Shown piece after piece: positions 45,265 to 58,837 of a DNA stretch of 64,000 bases (the first letter of the stretch is position 1; each line of letters opens with the position of its first letter). A program made the position numbers and the translations under genes. Origin of the DNA: Bdellovibrionia bacterium (GTDB taxonomy: Bacteria > Bdellovibrionota > Bdellovibrionia > Bdellovibrionales > JAGQZY01); NCBI GenBank assembly GCA_030427805.1, contig JAUICP010000001.1, positions 558,001 to 622,000 on the forward strand, read 5' to 3'. A model generated the notes under the pieces. It was not told where the DNA came from and ran no database searches. It was given only the letters and a program-made list of their open reading frames with translations.

Positions 45265-48200
45265 CTAACGCCAGCTTCGAGGTTTGGGATTGATTGCTCC
45301 TGGCCGGATTTCGATGCCGCTTGATATATGGGACATAATTTTTTGAATGGGGAGCTTACCCATTTCTTTAACGATAATATTATAAACTCCCTGGTGAACC
45401 TCGAGAGTTCCATTGACCCATAAAAAAGGAGTTTCAGTAATTAGAATTCGGTGTTGATAGTAGGTCTGTGGGTGGAGAACCAGGTTATAGGATCCCGTTT
45501 CATCTTCGAGAGTAATAAAACACATTCCTTTTGCAGTGGGAGGTCTTTGCAGAATACTCACCATACCGCTGACTCGCAAAACTGTTTGGTCACTGAGTGA
45601 TTTAATTTGTTTTGCTGTGTAAAAAGGACTTTGGGATTTTGTCACGAGCTTTTGATTGAGAAAGTCAATATAAGGGCGAATGACAGAAAGGGGATGATCA
45701 GTGATTGAGTACCCTTTAGTTTGATATTCTCGATTGAGGCGATCCCAAGTTCCTTCGCGGGGAATGAGCGGGCTCACATTACTGGTGCTCTCAAGTTTTC
45801 TTTCGGGTTTTCCAAAAAAGAGGCTATTGGGGTCAAGGTTTAGACTAGGAATGAGCCACAGAGCCTGTCTAGCATTGAGACCAAGGGATTCAAGACCTCC
45901 AGAGGTTGCTAGATAAATAAGTGAATTTTTTTGTAAGTTGGTTCTCTGTATGAGGTCTTCAATGTTTTTAAAAGCCCCTTGTTCGTGACGACTCTTTAAG
46001 ATCTTCTGAATTTCGTGATCCCGTAAACCATAGATCGCGTTAAGGCCAACACGAATTCCTAATAGGCCGTTGCGATCCTTTTCTAAAGTGTATTCATCAG
46101 AAGACTGATTGATATCCAGTGGAAAAAACTCGACGCCGTGCCTTTGTGCATCGGCAATCAGTGCTCTCGGTGAATAGAACCCCATGGGTTGGCTGTTGAG
46201 GAGAGCACAGGTAAAACTTTCTGGGTGATGGCGCTTAAGGTAACAACTCGCATAGCATATTAGGGCAAAGCTTGCTGAGTGACTTTCTGGAAAGCCATAG
46301 GCTGAAAAACCTTTTATAGTTTTATAAATTTGTTCGGCATAGCTTTGCTGAATCCCATTTTTCATCATGCCCGTTAAAATACGCTTTCTTAAACCATCCA
46401 TGAGAGTCTTTCTCTTCCAGGCACTGGACATGATTCGTCTGAGTTCATCGGCTTCCCCGGGCGTGAAGCCAGCGACTTCGACAGCAATTTGCATAATTTG
46501 CTCCTGAAAAATGGGAACGCCAAAAGTTTTTTCAAGAACTCTTTTGAGGGCGGGGTGAGCATAAGTGACTTTCTCGAGGCCTTGTCTCCTTCGAACATAG
46601 GGGTGAACCATTCCCCCTTGAATGGGGCCGGGACGGACAATAGCGATTTCAACAACCAAGTCGTAATAGTTGGCCGGTTTCAGTCGGGGGAGAAGAGACA
46701 TTTGTGCTCGAGATTCAATTTGAAAAACGCCGACGGTGTCAGCTTCTTGAATCATCCTATAGGTTTCAGGGTCTTCTTTGGGAATTTGTGCTAAATTCCA
46801 TTCAATGCCTTTATGCTCTTTAAGAAGATCCAAACATTTTTTAAGGGCGAAGAGCATGCCGAGGCCGAGTACATCAATTTTCATAAGTTTTAGGGCCTCA
46901 ACATCATCTTTATTCCATTGAATGACATAGCGATCCTGCATACTGGCTTTTTCAACGGGAACAATTTCGACAACGGGGTTTTGTGAAATGACAAAGCCAC
47001 CGGTGTGAATTCCTAAATGTCTTGGAAAGCCCTGAAGCTCCATGCTGAGACGTAAGACATGCTGAAACTGTTGGGGGGAGAGGTTGAATTCAGCCACCTT
47101 CTCTGGGTTTTCAACGAGGCGAGAAAGTCCCTCTCGACCCATAAATTTAACCATGGCATTTATTTTATTATTGGGAACACCCATAACCTTTGAAGTTTCG
47201 CGCAAAGCCATGCGCGAGCGGTAGCAAATCACCGTACAAACCATGGCGGCATGATCCGCTCCGTACTTTTTATAGATGTACTGAATGACTTCTTCTCTGC
47301 GGTTGTGTTCAAAGTCGATATCAATATCGGGAGGCTCCCCTCGTTCTTTCGAAATAAAACGTTCAAATAGTAAATCGACTTGGGTGGGATCGACATTCGT
47401 TAAACCGAGGGCATAGCAGACAACTGAATTGGCTGCAGAGCCGCGGCCTTGATAGAGAATATCTTGTTTTTTTGCAAATTCACAAATATCCCAGAGAGTT
47501 AAAAAATAATCTTCGTAGTTGAGTTCATTAATTAATTTCAACTCATGTTCGATGAGTTGAATGACCTTTTGAGGAATTCCTTTTGGATAGCGCCATTTTA
47601 GTCCCTCTGCGACTTTTTGTCGTAGAAACTTTGGAGCTGAACTCCCTGGTGGCAAATAATCTTGAGGATAGATGTACTTGAGTTCAGTGAGTTTAAATTG
47701 CACGCGATCGGCAATTTGCAGAGTCTTTTCTAAAAGATCTTTTCGATCTTTCCACAAGAAAGCCAGCTGATCGAGGGGTCGTAAAAAACGTTCTCGATTA
47801 GCGGTGAGGCGGGTCTTTGCCTCTTTGAGTTGGCATTTGTGAAAGATACAAGTTAAGACATCGAGCAGGGGCTTCCGATCCGGATGATGCATGAGTGGTC
47901 TTTGTGTCGCAAAGAGTTCAAAGCCCCCTTGCTTTTCAAGTTGTAAAGCTTGTTGATAAAGCTGAATAGACTCCCAGGAAAAGTCTTTCCAAACTGGAAT
48001 ATAAAGTCTGTCACCAAAGATATCCCGAATTTGCACAAGTTTATCCACATCCCAAGGAGGAAGGGCAAAGATTATTAGGTTTTCGTTATGATCGAGTACT
48101 TCCTTTAAAGAGAGGCCAGAAAAGCCCTTATCCACATGGCGTTTGGCCTGAGTAATAAGACGACAAAGGTTTGAATAGCCGTTCTTATTTATAGGAACAA

Positions 48201-48564
48201 GCACGATATTAGAACTATCGGTGAGGGTAAGTTCACTACCAATGATATATTTAAAATTCTCAAAACTCGAGCTATAGGAATGTTCTTCGAAAGATGATTT
48301 GTTGTAGGCGGCCTTAAAGCCTCGAACCACACCGTACATGCCATTAAGATCAGAAAGGCAAAAACCAGCATAATTGAGTTCTTGGGCCTTCTCGACCATT
48401 TCTTCTGGGTGGGAGGCCGCTTGTAGGAAAGAAAAATTAGAACGACCCAGAAGTTCTACAAAACGAGTGGTCCCGGAGTAAGTCAGATAGTGATCGGGAC
48501 TCACTAGGGAAAGATCATTTTTGGAACCTTTCTGGGATTTCTTTGATTTTATTTTCGATAGCAT
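45265..48564 (-). CDS. dnaE2: Error-prone DNA polymerase III alpha subunit DnaE2 (ImuC)
   Basis: The protein has 1,099 residues, usual for DnaE2. An N-terminal PHP domain (about 30-280) starts RSNFSFLQAASHPEEM; the polymerase active site is PPDIDIDFEHNRREEV near residue 412, then the palm and fingers with MICY-like YGFPESHSASFALICYASCY, a helix-hairpin-helix part, and an OB-fold domain near 990. It does mutagenic translesion synthesis with ImuA and ImuB after DNA damage. The PHP metal residues look lost (ELLGRS and SDLNG where catalytic PHP domains have HxH and TDHDG), so no proofreading is expected. It is 446 bp downstream of imuB. No strong ribosome-binding site precedes the ATG. Confidence 0.93.
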   Translation of the reverse strand: MLSKIKSKKSQKGSKNDLSLVSPDHYLTYSGTTRFVELLGRSNFSFLQAASHPEEMVEKAQELNYAGFCLSDLNGMYGVVRGFKAAYNKSSFEEHSYSSSFENFKYIIGSELTLTDSSNIVLVPINKNGYSNLCRLITQAKRHVDKGFSGLSLKEVLDHNENLIIFALPPWDVDKLVQIRDIFGDRLYIPVWKDFSWESIQLYQQALQLEKQGGFELFATQRPLMHHPDRKPLLDVLTCIFHKCQLKEAKTRLTANRERFLRPLDQLAFLWKDRKDLLEKTLQIADRVQFKLTELKYIYPQDYLPPGSSAPKFLRQKVAEGLKWRYPKGIPQKVIQLIEHELKLINELNYEDYFLTLWDICEFAKKQDILYQGRGSAANSVVCYALGLTNVDPTQVDLLFERFISKERGEPPDIDIDFEHNRREEVIQYIYKKYGADHAAMVCTVICYRSRMALRETSKVMGVPNNKINAMVKFMGREGLSRLVENPEKVAEFNLSPQQFQHVLRLSMELQGFPRHLGIHTGGFVISQNPVVEIVPVEKASMQDRYVIQWNKDDVEALKLMKIDVLGLGMLFALKKCLDLLKEHKGIEWNLAQIPKEDPETYRMIQEADTVGVFQIESRAQMSLLPRLKPANYYDLVVEIAIVRPGPIQGGMVHPYVRRRQGLEKVTYAHPALKRVLEKTFGVPIFQEQIMQIAVEVAGFTPGEADELRRIMSSAWKRKTLMDGLRKRILTGMMKNGIQQSYAEQIYKTIKGFSAYGFPESHSASFALICYASCYLKRHHPESFTCALLNSQPMGFYSPRALIADAQRHGVEFFPLDINQSSDEYTLEKDRNGLLGIRVGLNAIYGLRDHEIQKILKSRHEQGAFKNIEDLIQRTNLQKNSLIYLATSGGLESLGLNARQALWLIPSLNLDPNSLFFGKPERKLESTSNVSPLIPREGTWDRLNREYQTKGYSITDHPLSVIRPYIDFLNQKLVTKSQSPFYTAKQIKSLSDQTVLRVSGMVSILQRPPTAKGMCFITLEDETGSYNLVLHPQTYYQHRILITETPFLWVNGTLEVHQGVYNIIVKEMGKLPIQKIMSHISSGIEIRPGAINPKPRSWR

Positions 48565-48718: not shown

Positions 48719-48740
48719 ATCAACTCCTTTTAGTTCACAT

Positions 48741-48848
48741 GCATAAACCCAGTATCAATTCCTCTAATATAAAATGAGAGACAGTCCTCAAAGCTTGCAG
48801 CTTCTGAGGAGCTCTCATTTTATATGAGGAATAGTTACTGGGTGCATA
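48741..48848. repeat. 108-nt nested inverted repeat (large hairpin) between imuB and dnaE2
   Basis: The left arm 48741-48780 and right arm 48812-48848 pair over about 35 positions with few mismatches: AAAATGAGAG/CTCTCATTTT is perfect, then CCTC(A)TAT, AGTA-C-ATT and CCC continue outward. Inside, TCCTCA (48785-48790) pairs with TGAGGA (48805-48810) and AAGCT (48791-48795) with AGCTT (48799-48803), so the whole segment folds into one hairpin with a 3-base loop. The pairing weakens but continues outside these limits. No T-run follows on either strand. Confidence 0.7.
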
Positions 48849-48999
48849 CATATAAACCTAAATCCTTTCTTATAAAAATAGCGAAGAGAGGAGAATCAAG
48901 GTGGTGAAAGAAACGAGGCAAACGGTGCAAGTAAGCGAAGAGGCGTACTCTAGTACGTCGATTGAGCGAACGGACCGTTAACGAAGTTAATTTCACCAT
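48835..48999 (-). CDS. Small basic ORF (54 residues) directly after imuB
   Basis: The imuB stop TAA is part of TAAGGAG, which lies 6-7 bases before an ATG at 48999; the imuB stop and this start are 11 bases apart. The 54 residues are strongly basic (VKLTSLTVRSLNRRTRVRLF, then AYLHRLPRFFHHLDSPLFA) and end VCTQ at 48835. Spacing suggests a co-translated third member of the imuA-imuB operon. Against this, the first two thirds coincide with an imperfect palindrome, so the frame may be a by-product of an element inserted after imuB. Confidence 0.4.
   Translation of the reverse strand: MVKLTSLTVRSLNRRTRVRLFAYLHRLPRFFHHLDSPLFAIFIRKDLGLYVCTQ
48903..48997. repeat. 95-bp imperfect palindrome after imuB
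   Basis: Three stem segments are co-linear: GGTGAAA (48903-48909) with TTTCACC (48991-48997), AACGGT (48921-48926) with ACCGTT (48974-48979), and GGCGTACT (48942-48949) with AGTACGTC (48952-48959) around a CT loop. The stretches between them pair only in part. The element begins right at the small ORF start codon after imuB and could be an RNA structure or a decayed mobile repeat. Confidence 0.55.
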
Positions 49000-49010: not shown

Positions 49011-50321
49011 TTAGTCGAAGTAGCCGTGTAGGAAGTAGTCCTGACTACTAGTATCCTGAAATATCCACAAACATTGCCCGGCCGGAGAGAGGGCAAAATA
49101 ATAATCTCTTTCTTGGTGCACGTCCCACCATTCATCCTCCAATCTTTCAATAGGTGTTGTTGTTAAAAACTTCATTCCACGAACCTCGAAAGGACTGAGT
49201 CTCTCTGGGTCCGATAAAATTCTTGAGGGGCGAGGAGCTTCAACAAGTCCTTCGCTATAGGCTGGAACCACTCTTAAGGCACCACCTTCTTCTTCGTAGG
49301 TGGTCTCCATGGGAGTAAAGTCGGACTTTTCAGCGCGAACGCTCCAAGAGTCTTCCGGTAGAATTGAATCCTGCATATTAAAGAAGCCCGCTTGAAAAGA
49401 GCTTTGTTGTAAGACGCTAACTAAAACCTGTAAGCGATCTTCGTCACGAACTTGGGGCTCAAAGAAGTTCAACTGGTGCTCTTTTTCTGGGATACTCTTC
49501 ACTTCAATTTCGTATTCACGAATGGGGTTTTCTAAATTGAGCCCATTGAGTTTATTCTCCATCAGGGTCGTGAATAGCTCCAGGTTTCTATTGGGAGTGG
49601 AGGGCTCTAGATCAAGGCAATGATGAGCATTAGAGTACTCACAATAGAGTCGGAGCTGAATCTTGTAGGCAAAGAGGGCTCTGGCTTGGAGTCGGGCAAA
49701 GAGGTGTTTGAGGGAGACTTCCACTTGGCGCATAAGGAGAGGGAGCATGGAAACCGGGAAATCCATATAGCGGTAGTCGAGAATATGCTCGCTCGGTCGA
49801 AGTGGAGATATGACTTGCTCCTCAAGCCCGTGAATTTTGCGGTAAAGGAGCCTGCCCAGGTTTCCCCAGCGTTCCTCGAAATCCGTTTGATCAAAACGCC
49901 AGAGGTCCCCCAGCTTATTAAGGCCCAGTAAATAAAGTTGCGAAATAACTTGTTCAACATTTCTTTCTTTCTCCCAATATTTTAATCCTTCAAAATATTT
50001 TAGACAGTTAATGGCTAAAGCTTTTATTTGTTCCACTTCATCGGCGGGACTCGAGATAAACTCTTCGTACATTGTGGCAAAGGTCTGGGCCGTATAGGTG
50101 GTATTGGCAATGGCTCCATTGGCTGGCCCGATAAGTTCTTCTGCCGTTTCAATGGCCTGTTTCAGGATATTTTCTTCGCTCTCAAAAAGAGGAACACTCT
50201 TAGTAATGTCGATGAAAATAAGGTTGGGGCTACGATACTGTACGCAAGGGCTGAACTTGAGAAAAACCTCTGCTAGAGATGCCTTGCATTCCTTGTGTAA
50301 GTTGAGACATAAAATTCGCAT
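49011..50321 (-). CDS. imuB: ImuB, inactive Y-family polymerase-like mutasome hub
   Basis: The protein has 436 residues. AGGAGG lies 7 bases before the ATG at 50321, so the start is firm. It begins RILCLNLHK as ImuB does, has the Y-family palm/fingers outline and helix-hairpin-helix region (LYLLGLNKLGDLWRFD), but the usual catalytic Asp/Glu residues near the N-terminus are absent, as is normal for ImuB. A beta-clamp-binding motif QLNFF lies near residue 284. ImuB is known to bring DnaE2 and the clamp together. The start overlaps imuA by 92 bp. Confidence 0.88.
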   Translation of the reverse strand: MRILCLNLHKECKASLAEVFLKFSPCVQYRSPNLIFIDITKSVPLFESEENILKQAIETAEELIGPANGAIANTTYTAQTFATMYEEFISSPADEVEQIKALAINCLKYFEGLKYWEKERNVEQVISQLYLLGLNKLGDLWRFDQTDFEERWGNLGRLLYRKIHGLEEQVISPLRPSEHILDYRYMDFPVSMLPLLMRQVEVSLKHLFARLQARALFAYKIQLRLYCEYSNAHHCLDLEPSTPNRNLELFTTLMENKLNGLNLENPIREYEIEVKSIPEKEHQLNFFEPQVRDEDRLQVLVSVLQQSSFQAGFFNMQDSILPEDSWSVRAEKSDFTPMETTYEEEGGALRVVPAYSEGLVEAPRPSRILSDPERLSPFEVRGMKFLTTTPIERLEDEWWDVHQERDYYFALSPAGQCLWIFQDTSSQDYFLHGYFD

Positions 50322-51060
50322 ACTCGATCCTCCTGATAAAGTGGGGGGTGGGTCTGTATAGGGCCCGGTTGATAGTTATTTTTTTGCTTTCTAATTTAAG
50401 AATCATTGAGAACAGTTGCGGGCTATAGCGGTGCCCTTGGGAGTTGTGTAAGATCAAAGCCGTCTTATGTTTGCGACTGAGTCTTTGTAGGCGTTCTAAT
50501 TGATAGCGCTTCAGTTGTACGGTGCTAAGGTCACAGCCGATCAAGTCAAAGAGCTCACAACTCATTACTTCTTGCAGAGAAAAAAACACCTTCTTGCTGT
50601 CTAGGGGAGATTGCACAACAAGAAGGCGGGACAAATCGATTTGTTGCTGCCACAACGGCAAAGGATTCAAGAGAAGAGAAGAAGCTTTTGGCTTGATTTC
50701 TTTGTTGCTGCGGCCTTGGAGTACCTTTTGTACACCTTCGGCCTTGCGCCGCGAACTCAAGCCAAAATCATCTTCTCTATTGTGTACAGCTTTCTCTTCA
50801 CTAATGTTGATCCAGGCAGACCAGCGCGCACTATGACTGACCTCTCTAGCTGCGCGCAACCAGAAGGAGGTAGCTCCTAAGCCAGGAGCAGCATTGATCA
50901 GGGAAATTCCATTTTTAGGAAAGCCCTGCCAAAACAGGAACTCATCCAACTGCTGAATGCCAGTGGGGACGCCCTGGGGAGCGGCCACATACTGATCATT
51001 CAGCAGCTGGGATGAGAGTTGGCTCTTGAGTTGTTGTAGTTTTTGTTCTTTTGTTTCCAC
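50230..51060 (-). CDS. imuA: ImuA, RecA-like mutasome protein
   Basis: The protein has 276 residues. A RecA-like core starts at GVPTGIQQLDEFLFWQGFPK; the Walker A position reads NAAPGLGATS, lacking the usual Lys. ImuA is known to interact with RecA and ImuB during induced mutagenesis. The end of the typical ImuA core lies near YRPTPH, and the reading frame continues for about 30 residues into imuB, with a 92-bp overlap, unusually long for a bacterial operon. Downstream of lexA by 152 bp, all on the minus strand. Confidence 0.82.
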   Translation of the reverse strand: METKEQKLQQLKSQLSSQLLNDQYVAAPQGVPTGIQQLDEFLFWQGFPKNGISLINAAPGLGATSFWLRAAREVSHSARWSAWINISEEKAVHNREDDFGLSSRRKAEGVQKVLQGRSNKEIKPKASSLLLNPLPLWQQQIDLSRLLVVQSPLDSKKVFFSLQEVMSCELFDLIGCDLSTVQLKRYQLERLQRLSRKHKTALILHNSQGHRYSPQLFSMILKLESKKITINRALYRPTPHFIRRIEYANFMSQLTQGMQGISSRGFSQVQPLRTVS

Positions 51061-51212: not shown

Positions 51213-51989
51213 TTAAAACTGGCGGATCAGTCCCACGACAATTCCGCGAATTTCTACTTCATCCCAGCGGTACCAAAAAGACTTCATTCTTTTATTGGCG
51301 GGGCGAAGTTCAATATTACAATGGGGATCTTGCCCCTGTTCTTCTAGTTTTTTCGGGCTATGCAGATAGAAGTGTTTTACGGTTGCTTCATTATCTACCA
51401 CGGCCACAATAATCTCTCCATCTCTTGCTTCTTGTTGTTCTTGTACAAGAAGAAGGTCATCCTCTAGAATTCCGTCTTCAATCATGGAATCCCCTTCAAC
51501 CCGAAGAGCATAGGTTCGCTCAGGGTTGCGAATCATACTGGCCGGAATATCCACAAACTCATCGTGCTCCATGCGTTCAATGGGAATTCCAGCAGCCACA
51601 CGACCGAGTAAAGGAAGGCTCAATGCTTCAGGCGCTAATTGAGGAGCCTCAACGTCTCTTTCACCGTCGTCGATCTGTGTTTGTAGAGCTCCAGAACTTT
51701 GCAAAAGGGTAATGGCTCTTTTGCGATTTCCACCGGGCATGTGGATGTAGCCCTTGGACTCTAGCTGTTTAAAATATCTTTGTACGGAGTTAATGGATTT
51801 AAATCCAAAATGCTGCTGCACCTCTTTGTAGGAGGGAGCAATGCCCCGTTCTTTCATGTAAACTTCTAAAAACTCAAGAACTCGCTTTTCTTTGACAGTG
51901 AGTGATTGAATGGGGGTTTCATCGCCAAAGCCCTGGCTGAAATCCTCATCATTCATACTATTAGTTAAGTCATCTCTGTGTTCTGCCAT
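51213..51989 (-). CDS. lexA: LexA repressor
   Basis: The protein has 258 residues, about 55 more than usual, from an extra acidic N-terminus (1-28) and longer linkers. The DNA-binding winged helix is LTVKEKRVLEFLEVYMKERG followed by APSYKEVQQHFGFKSINSVQ. The cleavage site is Ala-Gly in GRVAAGIP near residue 130, the nucleophile Ser is in EGDSMIEDG near 166, and the general base Lys is in EATVKHF near 203. It represses the SOS regulon until RecA triggers self-cleavage. AAGGA lies 7 bases before the ATG. Its upstream region holds five 11-bp repeats. Confidence 0.93.
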   Translation of the reverse strand: MAEHRDDLTNSMNDEDFSQGFGDETPIQSLTVKEKRVLEFLEVYMKERGIAPSYKEVQQHFGFKSINSVQRYFKQLESKGYIHMPGGNRKRAITLLQSSGALQTQIDDGERDVEAPQLAPEALSLPLLGRVAAGIPIERMEHDEFVDIPASMIRNPERTYALRVEGDSMIEDGILEDDLLLVQEQQEARDGEIIVAVVDNEATVKHFYLHSPKKLEEQGQDPHCNIELRPANKRMKSFWYRWDEVEIRGIVVGLIRQF

Positions 51990-52104: not shown

Positions 52105-52159
52105 TGTAAGTAATGTATAAGTTATATGTAAGTTATGTGTAACAAATGTGTAAGTCAAA
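52105..52159 (-). promoter_or_regulatory. Five 11-bp direct repeats over the probable lexA promoter
   Basis: The plus strand reads TGTAAGTAATG, TATAAGTTATA, TGTAAGTTATG, TGTAACAAATG and TGTAAGTCAAA end to end, each exactly 11 bases, about one helical turn. On the minus strand the shared core is TTACA(C/T)AT. The last unit overlaps TTGACT (minus strand), a good -35, with a weak -10 (TAACTT) 17 bases on. The array starts about 115 bp upstream of the lexA ATG. It is likely an operator array for LexA itself or for another regulator bound on one face of the helix. Confidence 0.6.
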
Positions 52160-52262: not shown

Positions 52263-52335
52263 GCGCTACCAAAAGGAAGCTTCTACCTAACAGGTGTCAA
52301 AAGAGTAGACGAGGAGGCGCAAATGAGCGCCTTTT
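52263..52335 (+). ncRNA. Copy 1 of a 26-bp dispersed element with terminator; candidate small RNA
   Basis: GCGCTACCAAAAGG-AAGCTTCTACCT (52263-52288) is identical to 55113-55138. It is followed by ACAGGTGTCAAAAG, which has a partial match (GGGTGTAAAAAG) in the second copy, and then by a terminator: AGGCGC (52315-52320) pairs with GCGCCT (52327-52332), followed by a T-run. ACCT and AGGT on either side of a variable loop can pair in both copies. This may be a roughly 75-nt small RNA, or a 5' leader structure of the gene at 52456. Confidence 0.4.
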
Positions 52336-52455
52336 CGCATGGAAAGATGTTTGCAATTTCTATCTTGTACAAGAGAGAGTGGGCATCTGAAAGTCATTTC
52401 AAATTCCCAAAAAATACATAGTTAAATAAGAATCGGCAAGCTTAGGAGAGTGTGC

Positions 52456-55112: not shown

Positions 55113-55163
55113 GCGCTACCAAAAGGAAGCTTCTACCTGAAGGAAAATTTGTCGGGTGTAAAA
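55113..55163 (+). repeat. Copy 2 of the 26-bp dispersed element
   Basis: Bases 55113-55138 are identical to 52263-52288, and GGGTGTAAAAAG (55152-55163) is a looser match to the second block of copy 1 (GGTGTCAAAAG) at longer spacing. It lies about 155 bp upstream of the lipoprotein gene at 55269. A weaker hairpin AGCAT/ATGCT follows within 40 bp. Only these two copies are visible in the window. Confidence 0.6.
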
Positions 55164-56858: not shown

Positions 56859-56984
56859 ATTTGCCTAAAAACTTTCTTTTTCGACAAAAATGTTACCAAA
56901 ATGAAGTCATAATACCCCTAAACTAAATCTATCGGGACGTTAATGTGAATGTTGATAAATGTGAATTCTAATTTTGGGGGAATT

Positions 56985-57788
56985 ATGAAAAAGGTAATTA
57001 TTTTATTTGTAGCTTTATTAGGTCTTACTGCTTGTGGTGAGGGTGGTCTTGAACAAGCTGGTCTGTCACTTGAACAAATCGATCCAGACAATAATGTTTA
57101 TGGGATCGAGGCTGCCGAGCAAAACGGTGAACCTGTAGAAGTTGGGGCTGCCGCAAGCGCTGCTGATGTTAAAAAATGTCTTTCTACAAAGAAATGTAGT
57201 GGAATGAATCTTCGCTATGCCAATCTAAGAGGCAAAGACCTTCGTGGGGCTGATCTTCGTTATGCAGACCTCCGCTATGCGAATCTGCAGTATGCTAAAT
57301 TGGATCAAGCTCGAATGAATTATGCGAATCTTAAGTACGCAAGTCTTGAGTACGCTGATATGAACGGTGTGATCGCTCGCTACGCCACTCTTCAATACTC
57401 CGATATGGACTATGTAGACGCCATTGCAGCTGATTTAAGCTATGCTAACGTAAATTATGCAGACCTTCAGTATGCAGATCTGCGCTGGGCTAAAATGAAC
57501 TACATCGATGCTAACTATGCTTCTCTTCGATATGCAGAAATCGCTCAAGCTCAAGTTATGTACGCTGATATTAATTACTCTAACCTCAGATATGTTGAAG
57601 GTCAGAATGCACAAATGCAGTACTCAGATATCGAGCACTCTCGCCTTGGGTACGCTGATCTGAGAAACGCGAACCTTAGTCATGTATCTCTTAACAATAG
57701 TGGTGTTTCTCACACTGACTTGAGAACAAATCAAAAAACGGGTCTCACAATGTCGGGAACTAAGTACTTGAATACGGCGATTCGCTAG
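56985..57788 (+). CDS. Pentapeptide-repeat lipoprotein, tyrosine-rich (copy 1)
   Basis: The protein has 267 residues from an ATG at 56985 (GGGGG 6 bases upstream). The signal ends LGLTAC (Cys17). After a spacer with two cysteines (KKCLSTKKC), residues 75-255 consist of about 35 pentapeptide repeats of the form A-(D/N/K/T)-(L/M)-x-Y, for example YADLRYANLQYAKLD. The usual pentapeptide consensus is A(D/N)LXX; here one X position is nearly always Tyr, which would put a tyrosine column along a right-handed beta-helix. It is anchored as a lipoprotein, so periplasmic or at the surface. The next gene is a paralogue. Confidence 0.9.
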   Translation: MKKVIILFVALLGLTACGEGGLEQAGLSLEQIDPDNNVYGIEAAEQNGEPVEVGAAASAADVKKCLSTKKCSGMNLRYANLRGKDLRGADLRYADLRYANLQYAKLDQARMNYANLKYASLEYADMNGVIARYATLQYSDMDYVDAIAADLSYANVNYADLQYADLRWAKMNYIDANYASLRYAEIAQAQVMYADINYSNLRYVEGQNAQMQYSDIEHSRLGYADLRNANLSHVSLNNSGVSHTDLRTNQKTGLTMSGTKYLNTAIR

Positions 57789-58036: not shown

Positions 58037-58837
58037 ATGAAGAAAATCTTGTTGTGTTCTATTGTCTTGCTCGGACTTACAGCCTGTGGAGAAGGCGGTC
58101 TCGAAGACAAATCATCAAATGGTCTAAATACCGACGCAAATTACTATGGCTATGAGGCGGCTGAAGCGAATAACGATCTCGTAGAAGCGGGAACTGCTGC
58201 TAATAGTAGTCACGTAAGTCGTTGTTTGAGGACTAAAAATTGCCAAGGTATGAATCTTAGATATGCTAACTTAAGATCGAAAGATCTGCGCGGCGCCAAT
58301 TTAAAATACGCCGACCTAAGATATGCCGATTTAAGGTATGCTAAACTTGATTTAGCAGACTTGAGGTACGCAAAGCTTCAATACGCTCGCTTAGATTATG
58401 CGGATATGAATTTGGTCAATGCAGACTATGCGAAGCTTCAATACGCTGATCTCGATTATGCAGAAATGAGATCTGCCACTTTGCAGTACGCCAATCTATC
58501 ATATTCAGACCTTCAGTATGCCGATATGCCAGGGGTCGATGCTCAGTATGCTAACTTAAACTATTCTCGAATGCGCTATGCTGATCTCCGCAGTGCAAAA
58601 CTCGATTATGCAGATATCAATTATGCAAACTTTAGATATGTTGAAGCTCGAAATATTAGCATGCAGTATGTTGATATAAAATATTCAATGCTTGGTTACA
58701 CTGATTTGATCGGCGCCGATCTCGACTACACAAGTTTCAACTATAGTGGGGTCTATGCCACTGACTTTAGAAGGTCCTCTCGTCGAAACACAAAGTGGAG
58801 CAATACAAAGTATATGAATAGTGCGAAATTCAAATAA
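58037..58837 (+). CDS. Pentapeptide-repeat lipoprotein, tyrosine-rich (copy 2)
   Basis: The protein has 266 residues from an ATG at 58037 with GGGGG five bases upstream. It is a full-length paralogue of the preceding protein: same lipobox LGLTAC, same GEGGLE start, the same two-cysteine spacer (SRCLRTKNC) and about 35 Y-A-(D/N/K)-(L/M)-x repeats over residues 70-250. The two differ at many codons in the repeats, so the duplication is old. A basic tail RRSSRRNTKWSNTKY ends it. Separate promoters and terminators suggest different control. Confidence 0.9.
   Translation: MKKILLCSIVLLGLTACGEGGLEDKSSNGLNTDANYYGYEAAEANNDLVEAGTAANSSHVSRCLRTKNCQGMNLRYANLRSKDLRGANLKYADLRYADLRYAKLDLADLRYAKLQYARLDYADMNLVNADYAKLQYADLDYAEMRSATLQYANLSYSDLQYADMPGVDAQYANLNYSRMRYADLRSAKLDYADINYANFRYVEARNISMQYVDIKYSMLGYTDLIGADLDYTSFNYSGVYATDFRRSSRRNTKWSNTKYMNSAKFK

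Follow-up and report, generated by a model that had tools for sequence, protein, structure and literature searches.

Direct 11-bp repeats as the predicted LexA operator of a lexA–imuA–imuB–dnaE2 locus in Bdellovibrionota

The textbook LexA is a dimer bound to a palindrome; the motif itself is known to drift between bacterial lineages. A 64,000-nucleotide stretch of a Bdellovibrionia genome, hereafter the window, raises the question of what binds a lexA promoter that carries 11-bp repeats running head to tail. Direct-repeat LexA sites are already known from Alphaproteobacteria. Among open-licence PubMed Central papers, we found none that described LexA sites of direct-repeat or array type for this phylum.

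We identified lexA at 51213..51989 on the minus strand. It encodes a 258-aa protein with a winged helix-turn-helix (recognition helix SINSVQRY), an S24 peptidase domain and an AAG cleavage-site sequence. The protein matched both PF01726 and PF00717, passed TIGR00498 (164.6 bits, cut-off 110.95) and was matched by PDB LexA chains. VAAG and GDSM were both present, which we take to be the Ala-Gly cleavage site and the catalytic serine motif of LexA, respectively. No other full LexA match was found in the genome. An imuA-like gene with a RecA fold (50230..51060) lies downstream of lexA, also on the minus strand; its match to NF033429 (E 4e-10) was below the cut-off, and its orthologues adjoin lexA in relatives. 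The following gene (49011..50321, minus strand) is a probable imuB, assigned by its position and by what we take to be a resemblance of its product to ImuB; Pfam and NCBIfam gave no family match. The error-prone DNA polymerase III alpha gene dnaE2 follows at 45265..48564, also on the minus strand (NF004225, 1203 bits, cut-off 939). We infer that lexA–imuA–imuB–dnaE2 form one operon with imuA as its second gene. Some 450 bp separate the probable imuB from dnaE2, and this stretch contains a long inverted repeat (48740-48850), which may be a terminator, a regulatory hairpin or what is left of a mobile element.

The array occupies 52154-52089 on the minus strand (TTGACTTACACATTTGTTACACATAACTTACATATAACTTATACATTACTTACAAAAAACTTGTACA), in the gap between lexA (51989-51213) and a divergent gene at 52450. 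It starts inside a TTGACT hexamer ~165 bp upstream of lexA, and its consensus is CTTACACATAA. We scored the units with a matrix made from the arrays of families f10 and f4, with the organism's own genus excluded. Scores were 13.9 for unit 1 (CTTACACATTT, 52154-52144), 11.5 for unit 2 (GTTACACATAA, 52143-52133), 13.4 for unit 3 (CTTACATATAA, 52132-52122), 10.4 for unit 4 (CTTATACATTA, 52121-52111), 7.3 for unit 5 (CTTACAAAAAA, 52110-52100) and 0.0 for unit 6 (CTTGTACACAG, 52099-52089). The array was therefore read as five good units followed by a degenerate sixth. A first-pass annotation of this DNA had described five contiguous 11-bp units on the minus strand in direct rather than inverted orientation, and both statements held, with the sixth unit added. 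A TTAC-N7-TTAC direct repeat was present, and GTAA was absent from the lexA strand within 52154-52089, leaving the array without any inverted TTAC/GTAA pair with a 3-bp gap.

To score periodicity without reference to a motif, column-consensus matches were counted over six 11-bp units. The array reached 55 of 66 matches. Dinucleotide shuffling of the intergenic region, repeated 1000 times, gave 37.6 on average (sd 1.49) and never more than 43. It was the top-scoring place of the 64-kb window, and no other place reached 55/66. Tandem Repeats Finder gave scores of 60 for period 11 and 66 for period 22. When TTACACAN4TTACACA was searched with 0-1 mismatch, the array was its sole occurrence in the 4.5-Mb genome. 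A lone half-site (TGTAAGTAT / CTTACATTTTG) was found in the lexA–imuA gap at 51137-51127 on the minus strand (score 8.5, rank 23 of 127,978 window positions). The half-match noted earlier upstream of imuA is thus real, but it is a single half-site with no 11-bp partner, which makes it doubtful and weak evidence.

The array had also been said to overlap the best promoter of the region. The -35-like hexamer TTGACT (52158-52153, minus strand) overlaps unit 1 by its final two bases, and TTGACTTAC is kept in relatives at the same place. A possible -10 element, TAACTT (52135-52130, minus strand), lies where unit 2 meets unit 3, 17 bp past TTGACT, and matches the consensus weakly. A sigma-70 scan requiring at least 9 of 12 consensus bases returned no promoter at the array; TTGACT-N17-TAACTT has 8 of 12, and the main argument for it is the recurrence of TTGAC in relatives. 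The overlap is therefore backed by conservation but not by the strict scan. If TTGACT-N17-TAACTT is used, units 1-3 would lie over the core promoter, and the early part of the transcript would include units 4-5.

The same intergenic region holds a 24-bp motif, GCTACCAAAAGGAAGCTTCTACCT, at 52265-52288, with a second copy at 55115-55138. We observed 40 places in the genome with at most 2 mismatches and 0 in the reversed control. Several form inverted pairs ~60-140 bp apart, and the motif has the look of a REP/BIME-type dispersed element. Elsewhere in the window, two similar neighbouring genes (56949-57788 and 58037-58837) encode predicted exported pentapeptide-repeat proteins; Pfam was applied to the first.

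We assessed conservation of the repeat in 59 genomes of the order, including the organism's own. A LexA-type match was present in 54, and 50 lexA promoters were read; G015 and G020, whose LexA is weak and short, were left out, as were G045 and G049 (UmuD-sized proteins only). In a motif-blind count, 47 of the 50 promoters had at least one exact 5-mer pair at 11 bp. The 11-bp spacing had 215 pairs, followed by 22 bp with 107 and 12 bp with 47, and each remaining spacing from 6 to 30 had only 3-29; within lexA coding sequence, the same count found 18 pairs spaced by 11 bp. Excluding the organism's genus and the Bdellovibrio-like family left 33 promoters with 165 pairs at 11 bp and 88 at 22 bp, compared to 3-15 at other spacings up to 24. 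In a phylum sample, LexA was matched in 139 of 191 genomes, from which 40 promoters (39 outside the order and one, G207, within it) were taken non-randomly for full-length N-terminal matches and spread over genera. There, 33 of 40 promoters had an 11-bp pair in the same motif-blind count (141 pairs; 19 at 22 bp and 2-14 at the other spacings from 6 to 21).

Array length varied. Three-unit arrays (at most 2 mismatches) were found in 25 of the 59 order genomes at 1-5 matches per genome, most of them directly upstream of lexA, compared to 6 genomes with the reversed-pattern control. Arrays of 4-6 units with clean later units recur in family f10 (G038, for example), and most sampled relatives outside the order have two units only. 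In the nearest genome of the same genus, the array was identical at every base and the region further upstream could not be aligned. All four lexA promoters examined from family f12 were without the repeat. The array was kept in relatives with the same lexA–imuA cassette, where its absence would have told against the first-pass reading. Longer arrays apparently go more often with lexA–imuA linkage (family f10 and the organism's genus), and the linked genomes G018, G022 and G031 of family f4 have 2-3 units, the same as unlinked genomes.

We also considered the LexA hinge, measured between KR motif and cleavage site, which could be placed in LexAs other than those of several f10 genomes and G009. 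It spans 37-106 residues in CTTACAC-type LexAs compared to 21 in an E. coli-type sequence. A long hinge was rejected as the cause of direct-repeat binding, because G006, G010 and G013 have hinges of 20-25 residues and yet carry 11-bp repeats.

If LexA reads the repeat, the half-site should follow its recognition helix. PMC13416735 counts residues 39, 41, 42, 44 and 45 of E. coli LexA among those that bind DNA, and this numbering was carried over by alignment. We compared half-site class with recognition-helix residues over 90 lexA promoters. With N at position 41, the half-site was TACA in 39 cases and TACG in 0; with G, it was TACG in 30 and TACA in 0. At position 45, D went with TACGG (7) and never with TACGC (0), and other residues with TACGC (24) and never with TACGG (0). 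The classified promoters gave zero exceptions to this pairing (P = 3e-20 and 4e-7, Fisher test, ignoring common descent); 15 of the 90 promoters had no classified pair and 5 fell in the GTTCGG or GTACG classes. The pairing of D45 with TACGG was present within two separate families, f16 and f17. Half-sites in the phylum sample were mostly CTTACGC, with CTTACGG/CTACGGA in some and GTTCGG in three. GTTC-N7-GTTC stands at lexA in L242 (G096), L243 (G113) and L260 (G135), in families f22 and f20; the helices there are SPATIQQH / SVATVQEH, and convergence with the alphaproteobacterial motif is possible. Two loci, L070 of G010 and L069 of G013, encode short LexA-like proteins with the helices KSSVQHY / KSTVQHY and have upstream GTACG half-sites, several of them spaced by 11 bp.

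We compared the array with known LexA sites. Passages of PMC3323433 give the E. coli SOS box as CTGT-N8-ACAG; it too stands on SOS-gene promoters and is bound by LexA but, unlike the array, is an inverted repeat with another half-site. The alphaproteobacterial operator appears as GTTC-N7-GTTC in passages of PMC3323433 and PMC8565304. Like the array, it runs head to tail with an 11-bp period (4 + N7) under a LexA family repressor, so that LexA can evidently use direct repeats. It differs in having GTTC and two units, whereas the array has TTAC(A) and five or six units and belongs to another phylum.

For B. bacteriovorus, passages of the same two papers (PMC3323433, PMC8565304) give the LexA motif as TTAC-N3-GTAA, described as a short palindrome. 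It shares the TTAC half-site with the array, and Bdellovibrio-like genomes also carry it at lexA and the imuA cassette; the array has no inverted half-site. We observed that lexA and imuA of family f8, which presumably includes Bdellovibrio itself, carry the composite TTAC-N7-TTAC-N3-GTAA-N7/8-GTAA (e.g. TTGACTTACATATAATTTACATAGTAATTTATATGTAAAT). Eleven of 41 genomes carried it, at 17 places in total (one control match), and every one of the 17 was at these two genes (lexA 11, imuA 6). TTAC-N3-GTAA is the centre of this composite, where two 11-bp direct-repeat pairs meet face to face. The earlier statement that the array differs from TTAC-N3-GTAA is correct as to the inverted half-site, but the palindrome itself sits within a composite of the shared half-site and 11-bp repeat. 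In work by Campoy et al. in 2005, the B. bacteriovorus LexA regulon reportedly comprised no more than lexA and a dinP/dnaE cassette, in keeping with the pair of promoters seen in f8.

We next consider the repeat at other SOS genes. In the organism's own genome there was no three-unit array outside lexA, and the region upstream of pgpA–cinA–recA had no repeat pair. TTACACAN4TTACACA at up to 2 mismatches gave 21 matches compared to 26 in the reversed control, and CTTACAN5CTTACA at up to 2 mismatches gave 247 compared to 320; the array aside, there was no enrichment. Three other near-matches that we inspected were all inside coding frames, and none of these was a recognised repair gene. The arrays hoped for at recA, ung and MPG were thus not found in this genome, although recA does carry the repeat in other families. 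Because recA has no pair and no array occurs outside lexA, the regulon under the array motif may be the lexA operon alone; it looks very small, unless weaker sites are used.

Exact CTTACAN5CTTACA pairs had 59 matches in the order genomes, 30 of them away from lexA. All neighbours of these 30 were listed, and the likelier neighbours of 23 were scanned with Pfam. Twelve of the 30 precede recA (2), pgpA (3), umuD-like S24 genes (2), radical-SAM repair genes (3) or topoisomerase genes (2, both type I). At the three pgpA pairs, recA lies ~1.1-1.3 kb further on, presumably as pgpA–cinA–recA, and one umuD-like S24 pair is divergent from an SRAP gene. The remaining 18 were not at recognised SOS or repair genes, and several were inside unrelated genes. 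In three f10 genomes (L146, L168, L170), the repeat stands at the start of the radical-SAM DNA-repair gene; Pfam matched all three proteins, and the one protein compared with TIGR03916, a family linked to uracil-DNA glycosylase, matched it. This suggests that the radical-SAM gene is an SOS gene in those three genomes. In family f17, CTTACGCN4CTTACGC gave 39 matches in 19 of 41 genomes, compared to 1 control match. Thirty of the 39 were read, and 28 were beside lexA (9), recA (11), umuD-like (7) or dinB (1) genes, with 2 unassigned; two of the seven umuD-like places also adjoin SRAP. Six genomes with no full LexA match (G007, G017, G034, G045, G049, G055) had two exact pairs in total, both in coding frames. 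G050, which is 64% complete and without a LexA match, had two pairs, one at a radical-SAM gene.

The uniqueness of the array, its conservation at lexA, the co-variation with the LexA helix and the presence of such repeats at SOS genes of relatives together make it, with high confidence, the predicted LexA operator of the lexA–imuA–imuB–dnaE2 transcription unit, which it probably represses. A direct-repeat LexA operator at lexA, as the first-pass annotation had it, is supported by a repeat kept with the lexA–imuA cassette and a half-site that follows DNA-contacting residues. A response regulator of the OmpR/PhoB/KdpE type would be another candidate binder, as a winged-helix protein with 11-bp direct spacing and an AT-rich, TTTACA-like half-site: KdpE half-sites, given as TTTATA and TTTACA 5 bp apart in PMC3264566, share the spacing and a similar sequence. 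This family is unrelated to LexA, however, and we consider its involvement very unlikely, given that the half-site follows the LexA helix over 90 lexA genes, that the repeat adjoins lexA, recA, umuD-like and dinB genes, and that the six genomes without a full LexA hold only the two coding-frame pairs. Gene context and helix co-variation thus favour LexA. Control of lexA through the array by another S24-type repressor, whether a UmuD/LexA-like paralogue or a phage-type protein, would fit the extra S24 proteins in several relatives, but appears just as improbable with one LexA match in the genome and a half-site that changes with the helix of the LexA whose gene lies immediately downstream of the array. 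The intergenic sequence is AT-rich, as a chance or low-complexity tract would be, and yet the shuffles never exceeded 43 matches against the observed 55 and the repeat is conserved phylum-wide; this origin can practically be dismissed.

How many units LexA would use is a closer matter. Only the first two or three, in the promoter, may be functional, with the later ones decayed copies of an expansion. Scores drop along the array from 13.9 to 0.0, the majority of sampled relatives from beyond the order stop at two units, and Bdellovibrio-like lexA promoters have two direct units and then inverted ones. Against this stand the five units in 11-bp register, unchanged in the (very close) sister genome, and the 4-6-unit f10 arrays with clean later units. 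We regard restriction to two or three units as a real possibility, though not the one we would expect.

For a LexA-bound array, we propose that recognition helices would dock on CTTACAC half-sites head to tail every 11 bp, a phasing that would place successive LexA subunits on one face of the helix. Starting at the -35 hexamer, LexA would then cover the spacer, reach past the transcription start and keep RNA polymerase off; more than two units may be used cooperatively. Upon DNA damage, RecA filaments would trigger LexA self-cleavage and free the array, and its release would turn on LexA and the mutasome.

Drawn from sequence comparison, these data suggest that Bdellovibrionota may mostly use head-to-tail repeats rather than the textbook mirror-image LexA sites. 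A bolder, tentative proposal, which we put forward as somewhat less than an even bet, is that LexA of this phylum is a head-to-tail binder acting cooperatively on arrays of two to six units, that array length sets the threshold for release of the mutasome operon and that TTAC-N3-GTAA, the shortest LexA palindrome on record, is a mere junction between two direct-repeat operators that face each other. The natural arrays of two to six half-sites, along with the relation of residue to base, would offer a system for studying how a single repressor dimer can change over from inverted to direct sites, and the same phylum is suited to asking whether array length tunes the SOS threshold. A re-reading of the published Bdellovibrio motif is suggested, and SOS regulons that include recA are predicted in little-studied relatives of predatory bacteria.
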